64,000 bases of DNA from Ensifer adhaerens (GTDB taxonomy: Bacteria > Pseudomonadota > Alphaproteobacteria > Rhizobiales > Rhizobiaceae), in assembly GCA_900215285.1 (NCBI GenBank), contig OCMG01000003.1, positions 62,001 to 126,000 on the forward strand. Direction: 5' to 3'. This document shows positions 42,331 through 52,231 of this stretch, one piece after another. Below the pieces are notes generated by a model that was not told the DNA's origin, ran no database searches, and saw only the letters and a list, made by a program, of their open reading frames with translations. The number at the start of each line of letters is the position of its first letter. Position 1 is the first letter of the stretch. A program made the translations under genes and the position numbers.

Positions 42331-43155
42331 TTAGTTAGTACCGAGCTGACTGGTCGCCAGTTCAATCATCTCCGTTGTCATCTGTTCCTGCCGCGCCTGT
42401 CTCAGGGACCATTCAACGTCCGTACGACGTCGGCGCAGATTGGTTTGTGCCCGTGCCATGGTTTCGATACGGGCCTGGGCTTCAGCCCGGATTCCCTTCA
42501 TCAGCATGAGGGCGATGCTGGCGAAGAGGGCTTCCCGTTGCAGCCCGTCCAGCAGGAGCTTTGGTGCCATGGTCATCACCGGAGAGGGCGTCGGTGCAAC
42601 TGCCTTGCCGCTGGGGCGTGGCAAGAGGGTTTGCACCACAGGTGGCGCCGCCGGGTCAGAGGCTCCGACAATTGCACGGATCGTGCCCGGGTGTTCAGCG
42701 CTGTTTTCGACCAAAATATCGGTGATCCGGCTTGCAAGGTCCGGGGTGGCGTCCGGATGACCGGGCAAGTCGGCGCTCCACAGAAGCGATTGGTCGTCAT
42801 CTTCCAGCATCTGCACGGTGCGCTGGCCGGCGACAATCACGCCCAAATCCGGCTCGAACAACTGGCGGGCCGCAGCCGCGATGCGCGATGGATAGGCACC
42901 CGAGAAGCCTTGTGATGCGCCGATGACGATCAGCATTCCGGGACCTTCCACTCTGCCGGCACAGGGCGTACCCGCTGCCGCTTCAGCGGCTTCAACTGCC
43001 CTGCCGATGGTTTCGGCATAGGTTGAAATGGCCGTCATGGCGGCGTTTGCCGCCGCCAGATGGCTTGCGGCCATGGCACGAAGGGCACCTGTGACTTGGC
43101 CAATATCATCAAGTCCCGCCAGGCGTTTTTCGATCTCTTCAGAGCGGTCGGTCAT
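42331..43155 (-). CDS. atpG: N-type ATPase subunit gamma
   Basis: Central-stalk subunit, 274 residues, long N- and C-terminal helices ([20 protein letters not shown] at the start; [20 protein letters not shown] near the end). It is the last gene of the atpDCQRBEFAG order that defines N-ATPases. Its ATG overlaps the alpha stop by 4 nt. Diverged from the gamma of ordinary F-ATPases, as usual for this family. A 206-nt gap without a gene follows. Confidence 0.85.
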
Positions 43156-44654
43156 GTCCTGCTGATCGCCTCCCGGACGTTGTTGAGCAGAGTTGTCCGC
43201 ACTTCATCAGACAGTTTGTTGAGATCGGCACGCAGGCCCTCCAATGCGGGCTCGGCTGCCAGCCTTTCGGGAAGACTTTCCTTCAGCGCTGCGAGGTCTT
43301 CCGCTGCGACTTCATCAAGCATTCCCTTATTAAGGGCTGCGAGCAGTGCGATCTGAGTGAGGATCGAATAAGGGGAAAAGCGGGGCTGCGCCAGCAGTGC
43401 GGCAATCCTCTCTCCGCGCTTCAGCCTCGATGCCAATGCCTGTTCGCCGAAGCCGCCAAACCGGGAGAACATCTTCATTTCGAGATATTGCGCATAGTCG
43501 AGCCGCAGCCGACCGGCGACAGCCTTCATCGAACCCCATTGCGCCTTGCCGCCTACCCTGCTGACCGACAGGCCGACATCGACGGCGGGACGCTGGTTGG
43601 CCGCGAAAAGGGCCTGCGATGTCACGATCTGCCCATCGGAGATCGAAATGAGATTAGTCGGAATATAGGCCGACAAATTGCCAGCCTCGATTTCGGCAAT
43701 GGGCAGCGCCGTCAAAGATCCGCCGCCATGGTCACTCGACATCATCGCCGACCGCTCCAGAAGGCGTGCGTGAAGATAGAATATGTCGCCCGGATAGGCT
43801 TCCCGGCCCGGCGGTTGGCGCGAGAGGAGCGCCAGTTCGCGGTGGGTGGCCGCGTGCTTGGTCAGGTCATCATAGACGATCAACACGTGCTCGCCGCGGT
43901 CGCGAAACCACTCGGCGATGGAGGTAGCTGAAAACGGCGCCATCCACTGCAACCCCGGTTCGGCTGTCGCTTCGGCTACGATGAAGATCGTTCGGACAAA
44001 ATTGCCGCGTTCACGCACGGCCTCGATAACCCGCCGCACTCCGGACATGCGCTGGCCGATCGCCACATAGATGCAGATCATCTCGCTCTCGGCCTGGTTG
44101 ATGATCGTGTCCACCGCGATTGCCGTCTTGCCGGTCTGCCGTTCGCCGATGATCAGTTCACGCTGGCCGCGCCCGATGGCAAAGAGCGCGTCAATCACGA
44201 GAATCCCCGTCTCGACTGGCCGGGTGACGAAATCGCGCTCAATGATCGTTGGCGCCGGCCGCTCGATTGGCAGCCTGTCATGGCACTCCGGCAAAGGCGC
44301 CTCGTCCAGTGGTCGCCCGAGCGGGTCGAGGATGCGACCGAGCAGCGCTTCGCCAACAGGGACGGAGGCGATCTCACCTGTGCGGCTAACCTTCGAACCG
44401 GCTTTGATCCCGTCTGCCGGATCAAGAAAGGCTGCATGCAGCAGATCTTCGTCAAGGGTGAGCACGAAGCCGCGCGCGCCGCCTTCGAACACCAAGAGTT
44501 CATTGAGGGCAGCGCCTGGCAGGCCCTTCATGGTCGCCAGACCATCGGCGACCGCAACGATGGTGCCAATTTCCTCGGTCCGGGCTCCGACGGGAGCTTC
44601 ATCGATTCGCCGCTTCATTCGCTCGAAGGCGCTGAGGTCCTCAGTACTCATCAT
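43152..44654 (-). CDS. atpA: N-type ATPase subunit alpha
   Basis: Non-catalytic nucleotide-binding subunit, 500 residues. P-loop [13 protein letters not shown], beta-barrel start ([18 protein letters not shown]), and the Arg-finger region [32 protein letters not shown]. The start at 44654 overlaps the b-subunit end by 14 nt. Two ATGs in tandem (44654 and 44651) leave the exact start open by one residue. Confidence 0.92.
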
Positions 44655-45360
44655 GCATTGCCTCGGTTATGCGTTCCAGATCATGCAGCAGCGAATTGCG
44701 CAACACGCCGCTCTGCGATCGCAATTCGAGCCCCGAAATCAACGCCGGGTCTTCGGTCGTCTCCACCTGCACGTGAAACGGCTCCAGCGTCGCCAGCACC
44801 GTCTGGCGCTCTTCTGGCGACAGAACGGTAGCGGAAACGATGGTGAGGCCCCCGCCCCGCAGCAGCGCATTTCGCTCCGCGACCGGCAGAGCCGAGAGGG
44901 TATCGGCCAATCTATCGACATAGCCCTTGAACGTTGCCGGCTGGGTTTCAAGCGCGCGCTTGGCGATGGCGGACGCCAGGTCCCGTGCACGCTCAACCAG
45001 TTTTTCCTCGGCTCTCCTGTCGTCACGTGAGCGGGCGGCCTGACCTTCCGCAACGATCTTTGCCGCTTCGGCATGGGCTTGCTGGATCAGCGCATTGCGC
45101 TGCGCCTCCGCGTCTTCACGCGCCTTTGACAAGATCTCCTGGCGGCCAGTCCGGCTGGCTTCGGCTTGCGCGTCAGCTCTTGAAGCGGCCGCTTCGGCCT
45201 CCGTCTTCGCCGCCTGCGCCGCCTTCAATGCAGCATCTGTTTCGTCGCGCCGTCGGGCAATCATGGCAGCGACGGGCTTGAATAGGAAACGCTGCAGAAT
45301 TGCCAGCAGGACGATCACGTTGACCAGCTGGAAGCCGAATGAAACCCAGTCGAAGGTCAT
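44641..45360 (-). CDS. atpF: N-type ATPase subunit b with delta-like C-terminal segment
   Basis: Peripheral stalk, 239 residues, far longer than the usual 155-165. One N-terminal membrane helix ([20 protein letters not shown]), a long Ala/Glu/Arg coiled coil (about 35-150), and then a globular end whose final part ([20 protein letters not shown] then SLLHDLERI) resembles the C-terminal signature of the delta/OSCP subunit (DPxLIGGLxxRxGxxxxDxSxxxxLxxL). No separate delta gene exists in this operon, so b probably supplies the delta contact. Confidence 0.88.
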
Positions 45361-45605
45361 TTGACGAACGGATTTGCAAACAGCAGGAGCAAGGCGATGA
45401 CGAGGCAGTAGATCGCCATGGTCTCGATCATGGCAAGGCCGACGAACAGCGTGCGCGAGATCGTGCCAGCCGCTTCGGGCTGGCGGGCGATCGCGTCCAA
45501 TGCGGCAGCAACGGCACGCCCTTCAGCCAGTGACGGACCGATAGCCCCGACACCCACCGCGAAGGCGGCGGAGACAATACTGATAACCTGAACCAAATTT
45601 TCCAC
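45357..45605 (-). CDS. atpE: N-type ATPase subunit c (rotor ring)
   Basis: Two-helix hairpin of 82 residues; start assigned to GTG 45605 behind AGGAG (7-nt spacing), since upstream in-frame sequence is not hydrophobic. Ion-site residues: E28 in helix 1 ([11 protein letters not shown]) and E61-T62 in helix 2 (AMIETMAIY), with the polar loop RQPEA. In Na+-binding F-type c subunits helix 1 carries Gln at the E28 position and helix 2 carries Glu-Ser/Thr, so this site has two carboxylates. Ion choice (Na+ or H+) cannot be settled from sequence. Confidence 0.92.
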
Positions 45606-45624
45606 GCAGATTCTCCTGCTTTTC

Positions 45625-46287
45625 TCATTCTTCGTTGACGGCGGAGCCGATGAAGACCAGCGCCAGGGTGGCAAAAATATAGGCCTGAACCGCGCCCGTG
45701 AGCATGTCGAGTGCAATCAGGGGGATTGGAACCAGAAGGCCGGCAAGCGCACTGATGATGCCGATGACGAAAACGCCGCTCATGACGTTGCCGAAGAGAC
45801 GGATCATTAGCGAGAAGTGCCGGGTGATCTGTTCGACCACATTGAGCGGAATCATGACCCAGCTTGGCTTTGCGAAAGAGGCCAGCCAGCCTCCGAAACC
45901 CTTGCTTCTGACTCCCCAGTAGAGTCCGGCGCCGAAAACGACCAGCGCCAGTGCCGCATCGGTTTCCAGATGTGCCGTTGGTGGTTCGACGCCAGGGATG
46001 AGCGAAGACCAGTTGGCGGTCAGCACAAAGATCAGAAGCATGCCGACGAGCGGGCGAAAGCGCGCCGGATTTCCGGCGATGGTGGCCTGGATCTCGGAAT
46101 CGAGTGTGGTAACGATGAGTTCTAGAACTGCCTGGACCTTTCCCGGTCGCAGGGAAAGGCGTCGCGTCGCCAGAATGCTGGCCAAGCCAAGCACCAGCAT
46201 GATGCACCAGGTGATTACGACCGGCCAAGTCACGGCAATGGGACCGAGATGGAAGGCGACGGCGGCTGTCAGGGGACTGTCGATCAT
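45625..46287 (-). CDS. atpB: N-type ATPase subunit a
   Basis: Membrane stator forming the ion half-channels, 220 residues, five or six hydrophobic segments. The essential arginine is in the late helix [13 protein letters not shown], matching the a-subunit family. ATG 46287 overlaps the atpR stop (ATGA). An in-frame ATG at 46377 would add a basic, non-hydrophobic leader and is rejected. Confidence 0.9.
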
Positions 46288-46559
46288 GGTACCTTGAACC
46301 GTTTCAGGATGATTTTTCGGCCGGCGAGAACCCCAGCTGCGCATGCGAGCAACGGAAGCGCGCCGGTGCGCGCCCAAACGTAGAAAAGTCCTGCGAGGAC
46401 GACAAACCGCGCCACCTGCAACCCAACTGCCGCGATCTTGCCATCCACCAGCATCTTCGACAGATGGGAAAGCGTGACAAAGTGCAGCCAGCCGGCCAGC
46501 ACCCCGGTGCCCAGAGCAACAAGTGAGAGGACGGCGGTTATCGGATCAGGCCAGTTCAT
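46284..46559 (-). CDS. atpR: N-type ATPase-specific membrane protein AtpR
   Basis: 91 residues, three hydrophobic helices (ITAVLSLVALGTGVLAGWLH; VARFVVLAGLFYVWA; LPLLACAAGVLAG) and a basic end (RKIILKRFKV). Small three-helix protein found only in N-ATPase operons between atpQ and atpB. An arginine within the second helix (QVARFVV) may contact the rotor carboxylates, as proposed for the family. Overlaps both neighbours by 4 nt. Confidence 0.85.
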   Translation of the reverse strand: MNWPDPITAVLSLVALGTGVLAGWLHFVTLSHLSKMLVDGKIAAVGLQVARFVVLAGLFYVWARTGALPLLACAAGVLAGRKIILKRFKVP

Positions 46560-46830
46560 TGTTCATGCATCCATCTTAGCGCCAGCCACAGGCCCGTCGC
46601 GGCGCCGACCATCAGCAACGCCGCGGCAATCGTGATGCCGCTATCAAAGAAGCGATCAAGCCAGTGACCGATCAGGAGGCCGCCAAGTGTCGGCAGCACG
46701 ATGATCCAGCCGAGAACCCCGATCTGGCCAAATCGCCTTGCAAGTGACGGCTCAGGATCATTGCTGCCGACCAGTTCCCGTGCCTGCGCCCGTTCGGCCG
46801 CTTGCTGCACACGATCCTGCTCTCGTTCGA

Positions 46831-46834
<4 letters not shown>
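46556..46834 (-). CDS. atpQ: N-type ATPase-specific membrane protein AtpQ (AtpI-like)
   Basis: 92 residues: a charged N-terminal third (IEREQDRVQQAAERAQAREL) and two hydrophobic helices (GWIIVLPTLGGLLIGHWLDR; ITIAAALLMVGAATGLWLAL), the AtpI/AtpQ layout. By analogy with AtpI it may help assemble the c ring. Overlaps atpC and atpR by 4 nt each. Confidence 0.85.
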
Positions 46835-49800
<2,966 letters not shown>

Positions 49801-49804
<4 letters not shown>

Positions 49805-50736
49805 TTGATCATCCCCCTCTTCCGGCCTTCGGCCATCAACACGGCAATGGCGCAGGACAGCATACGCGCCCGCACGCTATCTGCCCGGCTTGTCAGCATC
49901 ACTGGAACGCGCGCGCCCAACACAATGCCGGCAGCGTCGGCACCGCCCAGGAAAATAAGCTGTTTTGCCAGCATGTTGCCGGATTCGATATCAGGCACGA
50001 TGAGAATGTCGGCCTGACCGGCGACCGACGAGACGATGCCTTTTTCCTTTGCCGCCGTCATCGAGACGGCATTGTCGAAGGCCAGCGGCCCATCCACCAG
50101 CGCGCCCGTTATCTGCCCCCGCTCGGCCATCTTGCAAAGCGCCGCTGCATCAAGTGTGGCCTGCATGCGCGGATTGATCGTCTCGACTGCTGCAAGCACC
50201 GCGACCTTTGGCGTTTGGCTCTCCCAAAGGACACGCCAGAGACCAATGGCATTGCGGACAATGTCCGCCTTGTCTTCAAGATCCGGCGCGATGTTCACCG
50301 CTGCATCGGTAATGATGAAGGGATGCGGATACTCCTGGGTGATGATGACGAATGCATGGCTGAGGCGCCGCTCCGTGCGCAGGCCTGCCGTCGGTGACAG
50401 GATCGCAGACAGGAGCTCATCCGAATGAAGCGAACCTTTCATGATCGCGTCAACCACGCCACGGCCGGCAAGTTCCGCCGCCTTCGCCGCCGCAGCGTGG
50501 CTGTGTTCGGTGTCGACGATCTCATAAGTATCGGGTTTGTGGCCTGCCTCGACCAGTGCCTGGGCGATACGCCCTGCCGGCCCGATCAGAACCGGAGCGA
50601 TAAGACCGGCTTCGACAGCCTCATCGACAGCTTCGAACACGGTGTGCTGCACGGGATGGACAATCGCAGTCCGCATCGGTGCCAAGCCCGTACAACGCTC
50701 GATGATGGCCTGATAATGGGGAGAATTCGGCATCAC
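49801..50736 (-). CDS. Phosphate acetyl/butyryltransferase
   Basis: Interconverts acyl-CoA and acyl phosphate; 311 residues, single PTA/PTB domain without the N-terminal extension of long Pta. Visible family segments: VDAIMKGSLHSDELLSAILS, RRLSHAFVIITQEYPHPFII, ITDAAVNIAPDLEDKADIV, and the C-terminal GADAAGIVLGARVPVMLTSR. It feeds the acetate kinase encoded next. Whether acetyl- or butyryl-CoA is preferred is unclear. Confidence 0.87.
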
Positions 50737-50742
50737 ACATCC

Positions 50743-51870
50743 TCAATTCTTTGACAGGATCCATTTGCCGATGGCTGGCCAGGTCTCCGCCAGGGTCCTG
50801 CGCCCCATGAAGAGGCCGATATGCCCGCCTGGAACAAGAGCGCTCTGCACCTCATTATCTGGCGTACCGACCAATGTGCGGGCGGCAAAGACCTGTTCGA
50901 AGGTCGTGATGTCATCAGCCTCGCCAGCCAGAAGGTAAAGGGGACACGTGACGCGCTTGAGGTTGAGCTCTCGCCCGAGCCCGACGAACTTGCCCTTGGC
51001 GAAAAGGTTGTCCTTGAAAAGCTGGCTGATGGCCTGGAGGTAGTAGGTGCCAGGCAGATCGAGCGGGTTTTCATACCAGCTTTCGAATTTCTTCGTCCGC
51101 CGTATGTAGTCGCGGTCTTCCAGATTTTTGTAAAGGGTGACGTACTTGTCGAGATACTGCGTATCCGGATGCATGTTCTTCCAGCCTGCAAGCATGAACT
51201 TGCCGGGCATTCTGCCATGGCCCATGGTGACCATCCTGCTGTAACTGGCCAGCGGCATGGTATGCGCCAGATGCCGTATCGGGCCGTCGCCCGCATTGGT
51301 GTCGATCGGCGAGCCGGCTAGAACCAGCGAGGCGACCTTTCCCGGGAAACGCGCAGCCAGCATAGCCGATAGCCAGCCGCCCTGGCACAAGCCGACCAGG
51401 TGAACCCGCCCGCCAAGATCGTCGATCGCGGCGTTCAATTCGGCGAGATACGTGTCGATCGAAAAATAGCGCATTTCGGACGTTGCCGATTTCCAGTCGG
51501 TCACCCATACCGCTGGAATTCCGACATCCAGCAATGTACCGACGAGACTTTGATCCTTATCGAAATCAGCGATCGTCGCGCCGTGGCCCGCGTAAGGCGC
51601 ATCGATCAGAACCGGTATGCCCTCGTTCGGCTTCCCGAATTCGCGCAACCGCATCGTCGGAAGATCCAGGCGCACGACATTCGTGGTGAACCATTCCGGT
51701 TCCGGGGGGTGGTCTATCTCCTCGGCTGCCTCGAGAAAATGCAGATAACGACTGGTCGTCTCCACTGCCGCTTCCTGTGCAGCAATTGCGGCCGATAGCG
51801 GCCAGAAGAACGGCACGCTGTGTTCCGCCGTCCCGGGAGACGCCAAAGAAGGCTGACCTGGATTACTCAT
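50743..51870 (-). CDS. PhaC-like alpha/beta hydrolase
   Basis: 375 residues with a PHA-synthase type nucleophile elbow G-L-C-Q-G-G (HLVGLCQGGWLSAMLAARFP, Cys in place of Ser), acid in LAGEADDITTFEQVF and base in PGGHIGLFMG. Size is nearer class III PhaC (about 355) than class I (about 590). It could polymerise or transfer 3-hydroxyacyl groups, or act as a related thioester hydrolase. Gene lies 6 nt before the Pta gene and 12 nt after a small unknown gene. Substrate is unproven; a cysteine nucleophile favours acyl-CoA substrates. Confidence 0.75.
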   Translation of the reverse strand: MSNPGQPSLASPGTAEHSVPFFWPLSAAIAAQEAAVETTSRYLHFLEAAEEIDHPPEPEWFTTNVVRLDLPTMRLREFGKPNEGIPVLIDAPYAGHGATIADFDKDQSLVGTLLDVGIPAVWVTDWKSATSEMRYFSIDTYLAELNAAIDDLGGRVHLVGLCQGGWLSAMLAARFPGKVASLVLAGSPIDTNAGDGPIRHLAHTMPLASYSRMVTMGHGRMPGKFMLAGWKNMHPDTQYLDKYVTLYKNLEDRDYIRRTKKFESWYENPLDLPGTYYLQAISQLFKDNLFAKGKFVGLGRELNLKRVTCPLYLLAGEADDITTFEQVFAARTLVGTPDNEVQSALVPGGHIGLFMGRRTLAETWPAIGKWILSKN

Positions 51871-51882
51871 GCCACATCCTCG

Positions 51883-52167
51883 TTAAACCGGTTGAACTTG
51901 AATGGACCAGCGTCCAAGTGCGGGGACAGTCAAATTTCCGTCCGGAACGATGCGCGAATGATCGATATGGCGATGGGGCAAAATGACAGCCTCGACCTGG
52001 CGGGCATCGTTGGCGGAAGGCCCTGTCTCCAACCGCCTTTTGTTCGCGATGCATTGAAACACCCGGTAGCCGATGCGGAACCATCGGTTGTTTGCCTCAA
52101 GACTGAAGCACGGACGGAGCCCTAGGTTGGGGGCGGCGTGGAAGCTCGATTCCGGGCTGGATTGCAT
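51883..52167 (-). CDS. Small hypothetical protein heading the N-ATPase operon
   Basis: 94 residues beginning at ATG 52167 behind an AAGGAAGGA ribosome site, and ending 12 nt before the PhaC-like gene. Third codon positions are mostly G or C, as in real genes here. Contains WFRIGYRVFQCIANKRR and a His-rich stretch LPHRHIDHSRIVPDG. No transmembrane helix or signal peptide; no family recognised. Position just after the FixK-type promoter makes it the first gene of the transcript. Confidence 0.55.
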   Translation of the reverse strand: MQSSPESSFHAAPNLGLRPCFSLEANNRWFRIGYRVFQCIANKRRLETGPSANDARQVEAVILPHRHIDHSRIVPDGNLTVPALGRWSIQVQPV

Positions 52168-52189
52168 AACTAGATCCTTCCTTCCGAGG

Positions 52190-52231
52190 ACCATAGCCTG
52201 CAGACAGCCTCTGTCGTTTGACGAGCATCAA
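52190..52231 (-). promoter_or_regulatory. FixK/FNR-type promoter of the N-ATPase operon
   Basis: TTGACGAGCATCAA (52218-52231) fits the FixK/FnrL consensus TTGAY-N4-RTCAA at every fixed position. On the minus strand a -10-like TATGGT lies at 52195-52190; the predicted start near 52183 puts the box centre at about -41.5, the class II activator position. The first ATG (52167) is 16 nt further on. This predicts induction at low oxygen. Confidence 0.7.

Follow-up and report, generated by a model that had tools for sequence, protein, structure and literature searches.

Acetate kinase and phosphotransacylase genes at the head of an N-type ATPase operon of Ensifer adhaerens: a candidate low-oxygen energy module

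In a 64,000-nucleotide stretch of the Ensifer adhaerens genome (contig OCMG01000003.1, positions 62,001 to 126,000; hereafter the window), genes for a PhaC-like hydrolase, a phosphotransacylase (Pta) and an acetate kinase (AckA) run directly into the genes of an N-type ATPase (N-ATPase). With a rough probability of 0.55, we consider this operon to be a low-oxygen energy module, in which ATP gained at the substrate level would drive an ion pump that maintains an energised membrane, prevents acidification of the cytoplasm, or both. The operon delivers an ATP source and an ATP user together, and comparable pairings exist in other bacteria, which hints at the purpose of a poorly understood enzyme and suggests a way in which a membrane gradient might be maintained once respiration stops. 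What N-ATPases do in the cell has been called largely unexplored (PMC5376962). Roles in salt and acid defence have been proposed (PMC10579370, PMC12342949, PMC6688271).

Operon structure and identity of the ATPase

The operon comprises 12 genes, phaC-like, pta, ackA and atpDCQRBEFAG, all read from the minus strand, where the open reading frames extend between 51870 and 42331. Families were assigned with Pfam and NCBIfam profiles, AtpA and AtpG being absent from the Pfam result. The features, in the direction of transcription, are listed below.

52218..52231, no strand (palindromic): FNR/FixK-type box TTGATGCTCGTCAA, the sole TTGA-N6-TCAA in the window
51883..52194, minus: possible small open reading frame, coding unproven; 103 amino acids (aa) with ATG 52194 as the start, 94 aa with an internal ATG that follows AAGGAAGG
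50743..51870, minus: PhaC-like alpha/beta hydrolase, 375 aa; PF11339/PF06850; GLCQGG elbow, plus Asp and the His of GGHIG
49801..50736, minus: phosphotransacylase (Pta/Ptb type), 311 aa; PF01515; NF006045 465.7 bits, cut-off 282
48692..49804, minus: acetate kinase (AckA), short 370-aa subfamily; PF00871; TIGR00016 304.8 bits, cut-off 293.4
47271..48695, minus: atpD, N-ATPase beta; Pfam and NCBIfam families; ATGA shared with the end of ackA
46831..47274, minus: atpC, epsilon; TIGR03166 110.3 bits, cut-off 100.1
46556..46834, minus: atpQ, AtpZ/AtpI-like membrane protein; PF09527 36.9 bits, cut-off 26.6
46284..46559, minus: atpR, N-ATPase signature subunit; PF12966 41.4 bits, cut-off 26
45625..46287, minus: atpB, subunit a; PF00119
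45357..45605, minus: atpE, subunit c, GTG start at 45605; NF009998 144.9 bits, cut-off 116
44641..45360, minus: atpF, long subunit b, 239 aa; TIGR03321 92.6 bits, under the cut-off of 224.7
43152..44654, minus: atpA, alpha; 28 relatives at 64-74% identity
42331..43155, minus: atpG, divergent gamma; TIGR01146 50.8 bits, under the cut-off of 194.45

A first-pass annotation of this DNA had read twelve to thirteen genes without a real gap. Twelve of them stand, with gaps only between the PhaC-like gene and pta (6 nt) and between atpB and atpE (19 nt, with atpE read from GTG 45605). The thirteenth, the small frame 51883-52194, is unproven; it has no Pfam family, a weak codon signal and no useful relative among the loci compared (best E 0.005, in unrelated places). 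Coordinates and letters confirmed the ATGA overlap of the AckA and beta genes and the overlaps at nearly all later junctions. Four nucleotides are shared at eight junctions, namely Pta/AckA (GTGA), AckA/atpD (ATGA), D/C, C/Q, Q/R, R/B, E/F and A/G, and atpF and atpA overlap by 14 nt. No terminator-like site was found between ackA and atpD on the minus strand (11 in all, shuffles 8.2), and promoter-like sites occurred at chance level (2 against 2.4 in shuffles).

The earlier reading of the downstream genes as a second ATPase with the N-type gene order also proved correct. The genes atpD and atpC lead, the order is atpDCQRBEFAG, and atpQ and atpR score above their cut-offs. Only atpF lies between atpE and atpA, and no separate delta gene is present in the operon; a long b subunit without a separate delta gene is a stated feature of N-ATPases (PMC4154653). 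Since a second alpha/beta pair is found elsewhere in the genome (C4:1497239 and 1499657), the operon ATPase is an additional copy. With the NCBIfam models for the 'alternate F1F0' ATPase, epsilon scored above its cut-off, and beta (609/752), c (117/131), b (93/225) and gamma (47/282) scored below, which would make the enzyme a divergent member of the N-ATPases. The beta subunit of another own-family N-ATPase, L142, likewise lies slightly under the cut-off (741/752).

Concerning the coupling ion, the signs in subunit c conflict. Aligned to solved c-rings, the subunit carries glutamates in both helices and the motif ETMAIY, not ESTxxY. Two c-subunit glutamates have been taken as diagnostic of Na+ (PMC8620254), and ESTxxY has been named as the Na+ motif (PMC9927469, PMC6688271). 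The N-ATPase ring of B. pseudomallei is a c17 ring selective for H+, and the enzyme was proposed to be an efficient proton pump (PMC5376962). In the reading proposed here, the ion moved by the window enzyme would probably be the proton.

The acyl-phosphate enzymes and the PhaC-like protein

A search of the host genome with the operon AckA gave a single matching place. PF01515 was found in three places, among which the operon Pta is the sole short frame; the other two belong to longer frames (767 and 816 aa) and are, by length alone, taken for malic-enzyme fusions. No acetate kinase and no stand-alone phosphotransacylase other than those of the operon were found in the genome. Eight catalytic motifs were read in 16 aligned AckA sequences (L059, L145 and L193, with no usable frame, were left out), and all eight are kept in the window copy. 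A 20-column C-terminal stretch is missing in 11 of the 16, including the window, Paracoccus and Shinella sequences, and present in 5. The closest solved structures are acetate kinases for AckA and a phosphate butyryltransferase for Pta, and the latter leaves room for acyl groups other than acetyl.

The first-pass annotation had named storage polymer as a source of the acyl group, and this part is unproven. The PhaC-like protein scored 139.5 bits with PHA_synth_III_C (cut-off 365.3) and 115.1 with PhaZ (cut-off 300.75), far under both, and we file it neither as a class III polyhydroxyalkanoate (PHA) synthase nor as PhaZ. In an alignment of 33 sequences of this type, Cys is present in all 33, and most also keep Asp and His. 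The same genome encodes a class I PHA synthase (750 bits) on another contig.

FNR/FixK-type boxes

The box ahead of the operon follows TTGA-N6-TCAA, which we take to be the FNR/FixK consensus. The pattern TTGATNNNNRTCAA has one match in the window (shuffles mean 0.15, with at least one match in 12 of 100 shuffles), and TTGATNNNNATCAA, with one mismatch allowed, has four against 1.18 in shuffles. Among the host proteins is an FNR-like one that carries CISCEARHGGIC as its cysteine motif; its gene (in L206) has a box of its own 71 b upstream of the longest reading. A cysteine cluster is likewise present in a second Crp/Fnr protein of the host (L210).

Of 23 N-ATPase loci from the host's own family, 12 carry an exact TTGAY-N4-RTCAA in the 300 b ahead of atpD, among them L119 and L120, which are copies within one genome; shuffles gave a mean of 0.01 and 1 at the largest. 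When 400 b upstream were considered, a box was present in 13 of 48 N-ATPase loci, compared with 161 of 9600 stretches drawn at random from these loci (6 of 54 loci, L009, L023, L031, L133, L141 and L192, were dropped with the upstream region missing or the start uncovered). This argues that own-family N-ATPases are often oxygen-regulated. The sign is weak outside the family, where a box with at most one mismatch precedes atpD in 5 of 25 loci (shuffles 0.17). A relevant precedent is Nitrospira marina, whose N-ATPase subunits were reported to be upregulated at low O2 (PMC10579370, citing its ref. 20), and this published induction makes the oxygen part of our reading less new.

As a general mark of the PhaC module, the FNR box was rejected, as 31 of 38 operons beginning with PhaC or Pta lack it. 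In a separate locus, L151:1-15462, seven FNR-type boxes lie in 19 kb (0.04 expected from base composition) around a PhaC-like gene and Pta-AckA, forming a low-oxygen island.

Kinase genes at other N-ATPase loci

We compared the operon with 28 N-ATPase loci on genome contigs, nearest by the alpha subunit, 24 loci of the own family and 18 on plasmids. In the own-family set, AtpR was matched in 26 of 394 genomes (the host included), and 24 of the 26 places outside the host genome were examined, G663 and G641 being left out. In the own-family locus L142 (L142:2051-8114), the genes for ArcD, ArcA, ArcB and ArcC are followed by atpD, the carbamate kinase gene and atpD overlap by ATGA, and an FNR-type box lies 162 b before arcD. 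The arginine-ornithine antiporter (TIGR03810), ArcA (NF002381), ArcB (TIGR00658) and ArcC (TIGR00746) reached the cut-offs of these models, with ArcA scoring only 462 of 489 against TIGR01078. ArcA-ArcB-ArcC genes also stand upstream of atpD on the same strand, separated from it by one SDR-like gene in L139 and by an HdeD gene on a plasmid of Roseicitreum antarcticum. In L121, the arc operon is divergent from the N-ATPase, with an FNR-type box before each.

As for acetate kinase, Rhizorhabdus dicambivorans, selected for the AckA known to lie near its N-ATPase, carries hydrolase-Pta-AckA-FabI, a small opposite gene and atpD 0.7 kb on. Six further sphingomonad plasmids show the same 1529-b AckA-atpD spacing by coordinates, and such identity points to one event. 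AckA-Pta-FabI-hydrolase genes lie head-to-head with the N-ATPase in Sulfitobacter sp. SK012, with two boxes between. On the strand opposite to the N-ATPase, Polymorphobacter has AckA-Rpe-Zwf-Tkt genes nearby, and Paraburkholderia phytofirmans OLGA172 has ArcD-ArcA-ArcB (ArcC is not in the stretch). From 40 and 65 matched records of named plasmids, lists which overlap and the second of which includes ordinary F-type enzymes, 16 N-ATPase stretches were read. Among the 15 besides Rhizorhabdus, the pairing was seen in four (Sulfitobacter, Roseicitreum, Paraburkholderia and Polymorphobacter), and 11 were without it.

In all, AckA or ArcA/ArcC was present in the stretch at 9 of 70 loci, or 7 of 68 without the two found through AckA (L059 of Legionella fallonii, and L223). 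With a rough expectation of 0.5 to 1 for genes present once per genome in stretches of this kind, the Poisson P, calculated from N-ATPase loci alone, is 1e-6 to 8e-5, a value that kinship among the loci makes indicative only. Among the acetate-kinase cases encountered, the coupling is closest in the window. As an observation apart from these kinases, a phosphoenolpyruvate synthase gene was noticed near the N-ATPase on plasmids of Methylosinus and Acaryochloris (L226:1508-3889, opposite strand; L235:3771-6287, directly before).

Conservation in related genomes, on which the first-pass annotation had staked its proposal, gave a divided answer: the general pairing of kinase and N-ATPase recurs, and the exact four-part fusion was seen at none of the other loci compared. 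The order phaC-pta-ackA-atpD was not found in the 28 genome-contig, 24 own-family and 18 plasmid loci, some of whose stretches end at or before atpD, and Pta was present in none of the 28 genome-contig stretches. In three of these 28 (Xylophilus, Labrenzia and Roseibium), a PhaC-like gene stands directly before atpD, and in L026 a DUF3141 relative lies upstream. In a metagenome protein set, relatives of AckA (91%) and PhaC (90%) come from contigs of equal size, 9966, a hint that PhaC and AckA occur together once more; no link between atpD and that contig could be made. Among the best 120 matches per protein, PhaC and AckA relatives share seven contigs matched by size (9966, 35774, 72579, 11494, 15907, 6616 and 6719), making PhaC with AckA itself a recurrent pair. 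L194 (G1405) has PhaC, Pta and AckA in this sequence, with convergent genes rather than an ATPase behind them.

An upstream partner common to all N-ATPases was also sought and rejected; in ten loci, the gene before atpD was assigned to a different family in eight cases and to no family in two. One N-ATPase locus, on a contig of a metagenome-assembled genome (L015:3949-8985), carries atpD-C-Q-R-B twice in tandem with a short second atpD, a duplication or an assembly fault.

In the literature consulted, we found no work linking N-ATPases with acetate kinase, arc genes or FNR/FixK boxes, and an earlier mention is possible. N-ATPase and acetate kinase both occur in PMC3543383 and PMC4455057, N-ATPase only in the reference list. 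A further relevant precedent is the Type 2 F1-like ATPase cluster of mycoplasmas, with eutD and ack downstream in two species and in various places in most (PMC3369863).

A different pump beside the same module

The PhaC-like subfamily was sampled at 22 places (E <= 1e-100), outside the host genome and outside G802, which had been picked as the centre on account of its N-ATPase. A P3A proton-efflux ATPase adjoins the PhaC-like gene in seven of them, after it in L173, L174, L175, L176 and L178 and before it in L155 and L191. The P3A proteins of L155 (both copies), L173, L174, L175 and L178 exceeded the TIGR01647 cut-off; those of L176 and L191 were assigned by similarity. An N-ATPase was in the stretch once (L192), and Pta-AckA genes were adjacent in three (L176, L193 and L194), with L176 carrying Pta-AckA-PhaC-P3A in one run on one strand. 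P3A pumps export protons at the expense of ATP, and to our knowledge they do not act as synthases in cells. Their occupation of the same seat beside PhaC suggests that the N-ATPase in the window also consumes ATP. Pump labels changed 9 times on the PhaC tree, against a mean of 11.1 after shuffling, and 14 of 200 shuffles gave as few changes; with clustering this weak, single and repeated pump swaps are not firmly separable. The PhaC-adjoining P3A pumps were found in Rhodobacterales and others, and in L191 the gene on the other side encodes a TrkH cation transporter.

On a replicon of Burkholderia cenocepacia (L199), Pta-AckA-PhaC-FabI genes have a box 93 b before Pta, and no N-ATPase was found in the 19-kb stretch. 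The lxa-type locus is an island of about 50 genes, induced by low oxygen and containing universal stress proteins. We take L199 to be lxa itself or a relative of it. In B. cenocepacia, lxa has been reported to respond to low oxygen by induction (PMC6127331, PMC9104464).

Taking these comparisons together, a wider reading can be offered tentatively, at slightly under even odds. Many alpha- and betaproteobacterial N-ATPases would be FNR/FixK anoxia pumps running on substrate-level ATP, to which kinases (acetate, carbamate) have been wired repeatedly, and the PhaC/Pta/AckA module could use a P3A pump instead.

Proposed mechanism and its alternatives

Starting from what was directly observed, namely the gene content, the overlaps, the kinase motifs, the single ackA and stand-alone pta, the box and the recurrence of kinases with N-ATPases, we infer a single message, its induction by FNR, the direction and ion of the pump, the acyl substrate and what the PhaC-like protein does. 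On a fall in oxygen, a regulator of the FNR type would activate the operon through the box at 52218-52231. Pta would convert acyl-CoA to acyl phosphate, from which AckA would form ATP without respiration, and the N-ATPase translated from the same message would spend this ATP to export ions, probably protons. Ion export would keep the membrane energised and/or counter acidification of the cytoplasm by fermentation acids. The PhaC-like hydrolase might supply or shunt acyl-CoA, or act on storage polymer. A pump fed by substrate-level ATP at low oxygen had been proposed in the first pass, and comparison lends it support in L142, the FNR-type boxes, the P3A pumps and the Nitrospira report. With the ackA fusion, the carbamate kinase fusion and the oxygen-type boxes, the function of N-ATPases becomes open to simple tests.

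Several results weigh against a low-oxygen energy module. AckA was found in none of the 28 genome-contig and none of the 24 own-family loci within the stretches examined, and ArcC/A in none of the former and 3 of the latter, so that most N-ATPases examined are without a kinase partner. Matches to AckA and AtpR are absent from five genomes of the same genus; the island is accordingly dispensable there, and lateral gain is suggested. The box is situated 348 b upstream of phaC, which fits only with a transcription start in the leader. Outside the own family, an exact box precedes atpD in 1 of 25 loci, and among the 38 operons with PhaC or Pta first, 7 have a box (shuffles 0.49). One of the promoter-like sites (49038-49010) falls within ackA, about 315 b ahead of atpD, and a second transcription start there may exist despite the chance-level signal. 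In the P3A protein of L176 (L176:6537-9029), SNKTGT replaces the expected DKTGT, with N in place of the phosphorylated D; this pump may be inactive, or the change a sequencing error.

An unlikely reading, though the best of the alternatives, is that the pump serves pH defence first, exporting protons that stem from Pta-AckA acid or from external acid, with energisation as a side effect. The gene between arcC and atpD in Roseicitreum is of the HdeD acid-resistance type, arginine deiminase yields ammonia, as is textbook knowledge, and the PhaC partner elsewhere is the P3A H+ pump. Published proposals assign a role in acid defence to the B. pseudomallei N-ATPase and to an N-ATPase-like enzyme from Methylacidiphilum (PMC5376962, PMC6688271). 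On the other hand, the FNR-type boxes indicate oxygen rather than pH as the signal, and the ion of the window enzyme may be other than H+.

Somewhat less likely again is shared regulation only, in which pta-ackA would have been inserted between phaC and atpD within a low-oxygen island of lateral origin, the neighbours having a promoter in common but no metabolic coupling. An unrelated kinase pathway with the same overlap in the same position (L142) speaks against such an accident, as does the retention of the single-copy ackA and pta in this operon. Yet the exact fusion was seen in a single genome, the window PhaC groups with that of Xylophilus, itself directly before atpD, and the nearest Pta-AckA pairs of known context are separate Paracoccus-type operons (72-76%). 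Such islands also mix many stress genes, and the scattered eutD-ack positions in most mycoplasmas fit this explanation. We regard the reverse direction, in which a many-subunit ring would allow ATP synthesis by the N-ATPase when the proton-motive force is low, and acetate would be activated by Pta-AckA, as very improbable, since P3A pumps fill the partner seat elsewhere and fermentative arc operons yield ATP.

Outside the operon, the window carries in a row genes for an NMT1/SsuA-like binding protein, a sulfatase and a formylglycine-generating-type modifying factor (window:37580-41130).

Comparison with known systems

The mycoplasma cluster resembles the window operon in having phosphotransacetylase and acetate kinase genes beside F1-like ATPase genes, but its ATPase is not an N-ATPase and has no known F0 sector. 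If L199 is lxa or its kin, the lxa locus shares the Pta-AckA-PhaC module and the link to low oxygen; the difference is the pump, located inside the operon in the window and not found in the L199 stretch. P3A beside the PhaC-like gene provides an ATP-driven H+ pump on the same PhaC-like module, once with Pta-AckA, although the pump family is unrelated to N-ATPases. With the N-ATPases themselves, the window enzyme shares the gene order, atpQ and atpR, the lack of delta, the two c glutamates and its status as an extra beside the F-type ATP synthase. It departs from them in an operon that begins with phaC-like, pta and ackA, and in beta, c, b and gamma subunits under the 'alternate F1F0' cut-offs. 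Finally, the arcDABC genes rely on carbamoyl phosphate and carbamate kinase, whereas the window relies on acyl phosphate and acetate kinase; in both, fermentative ATP is drawn from a phosphorylated intermediate and the kinase gene comes last, coupled in L142, as in the window, to atpD.

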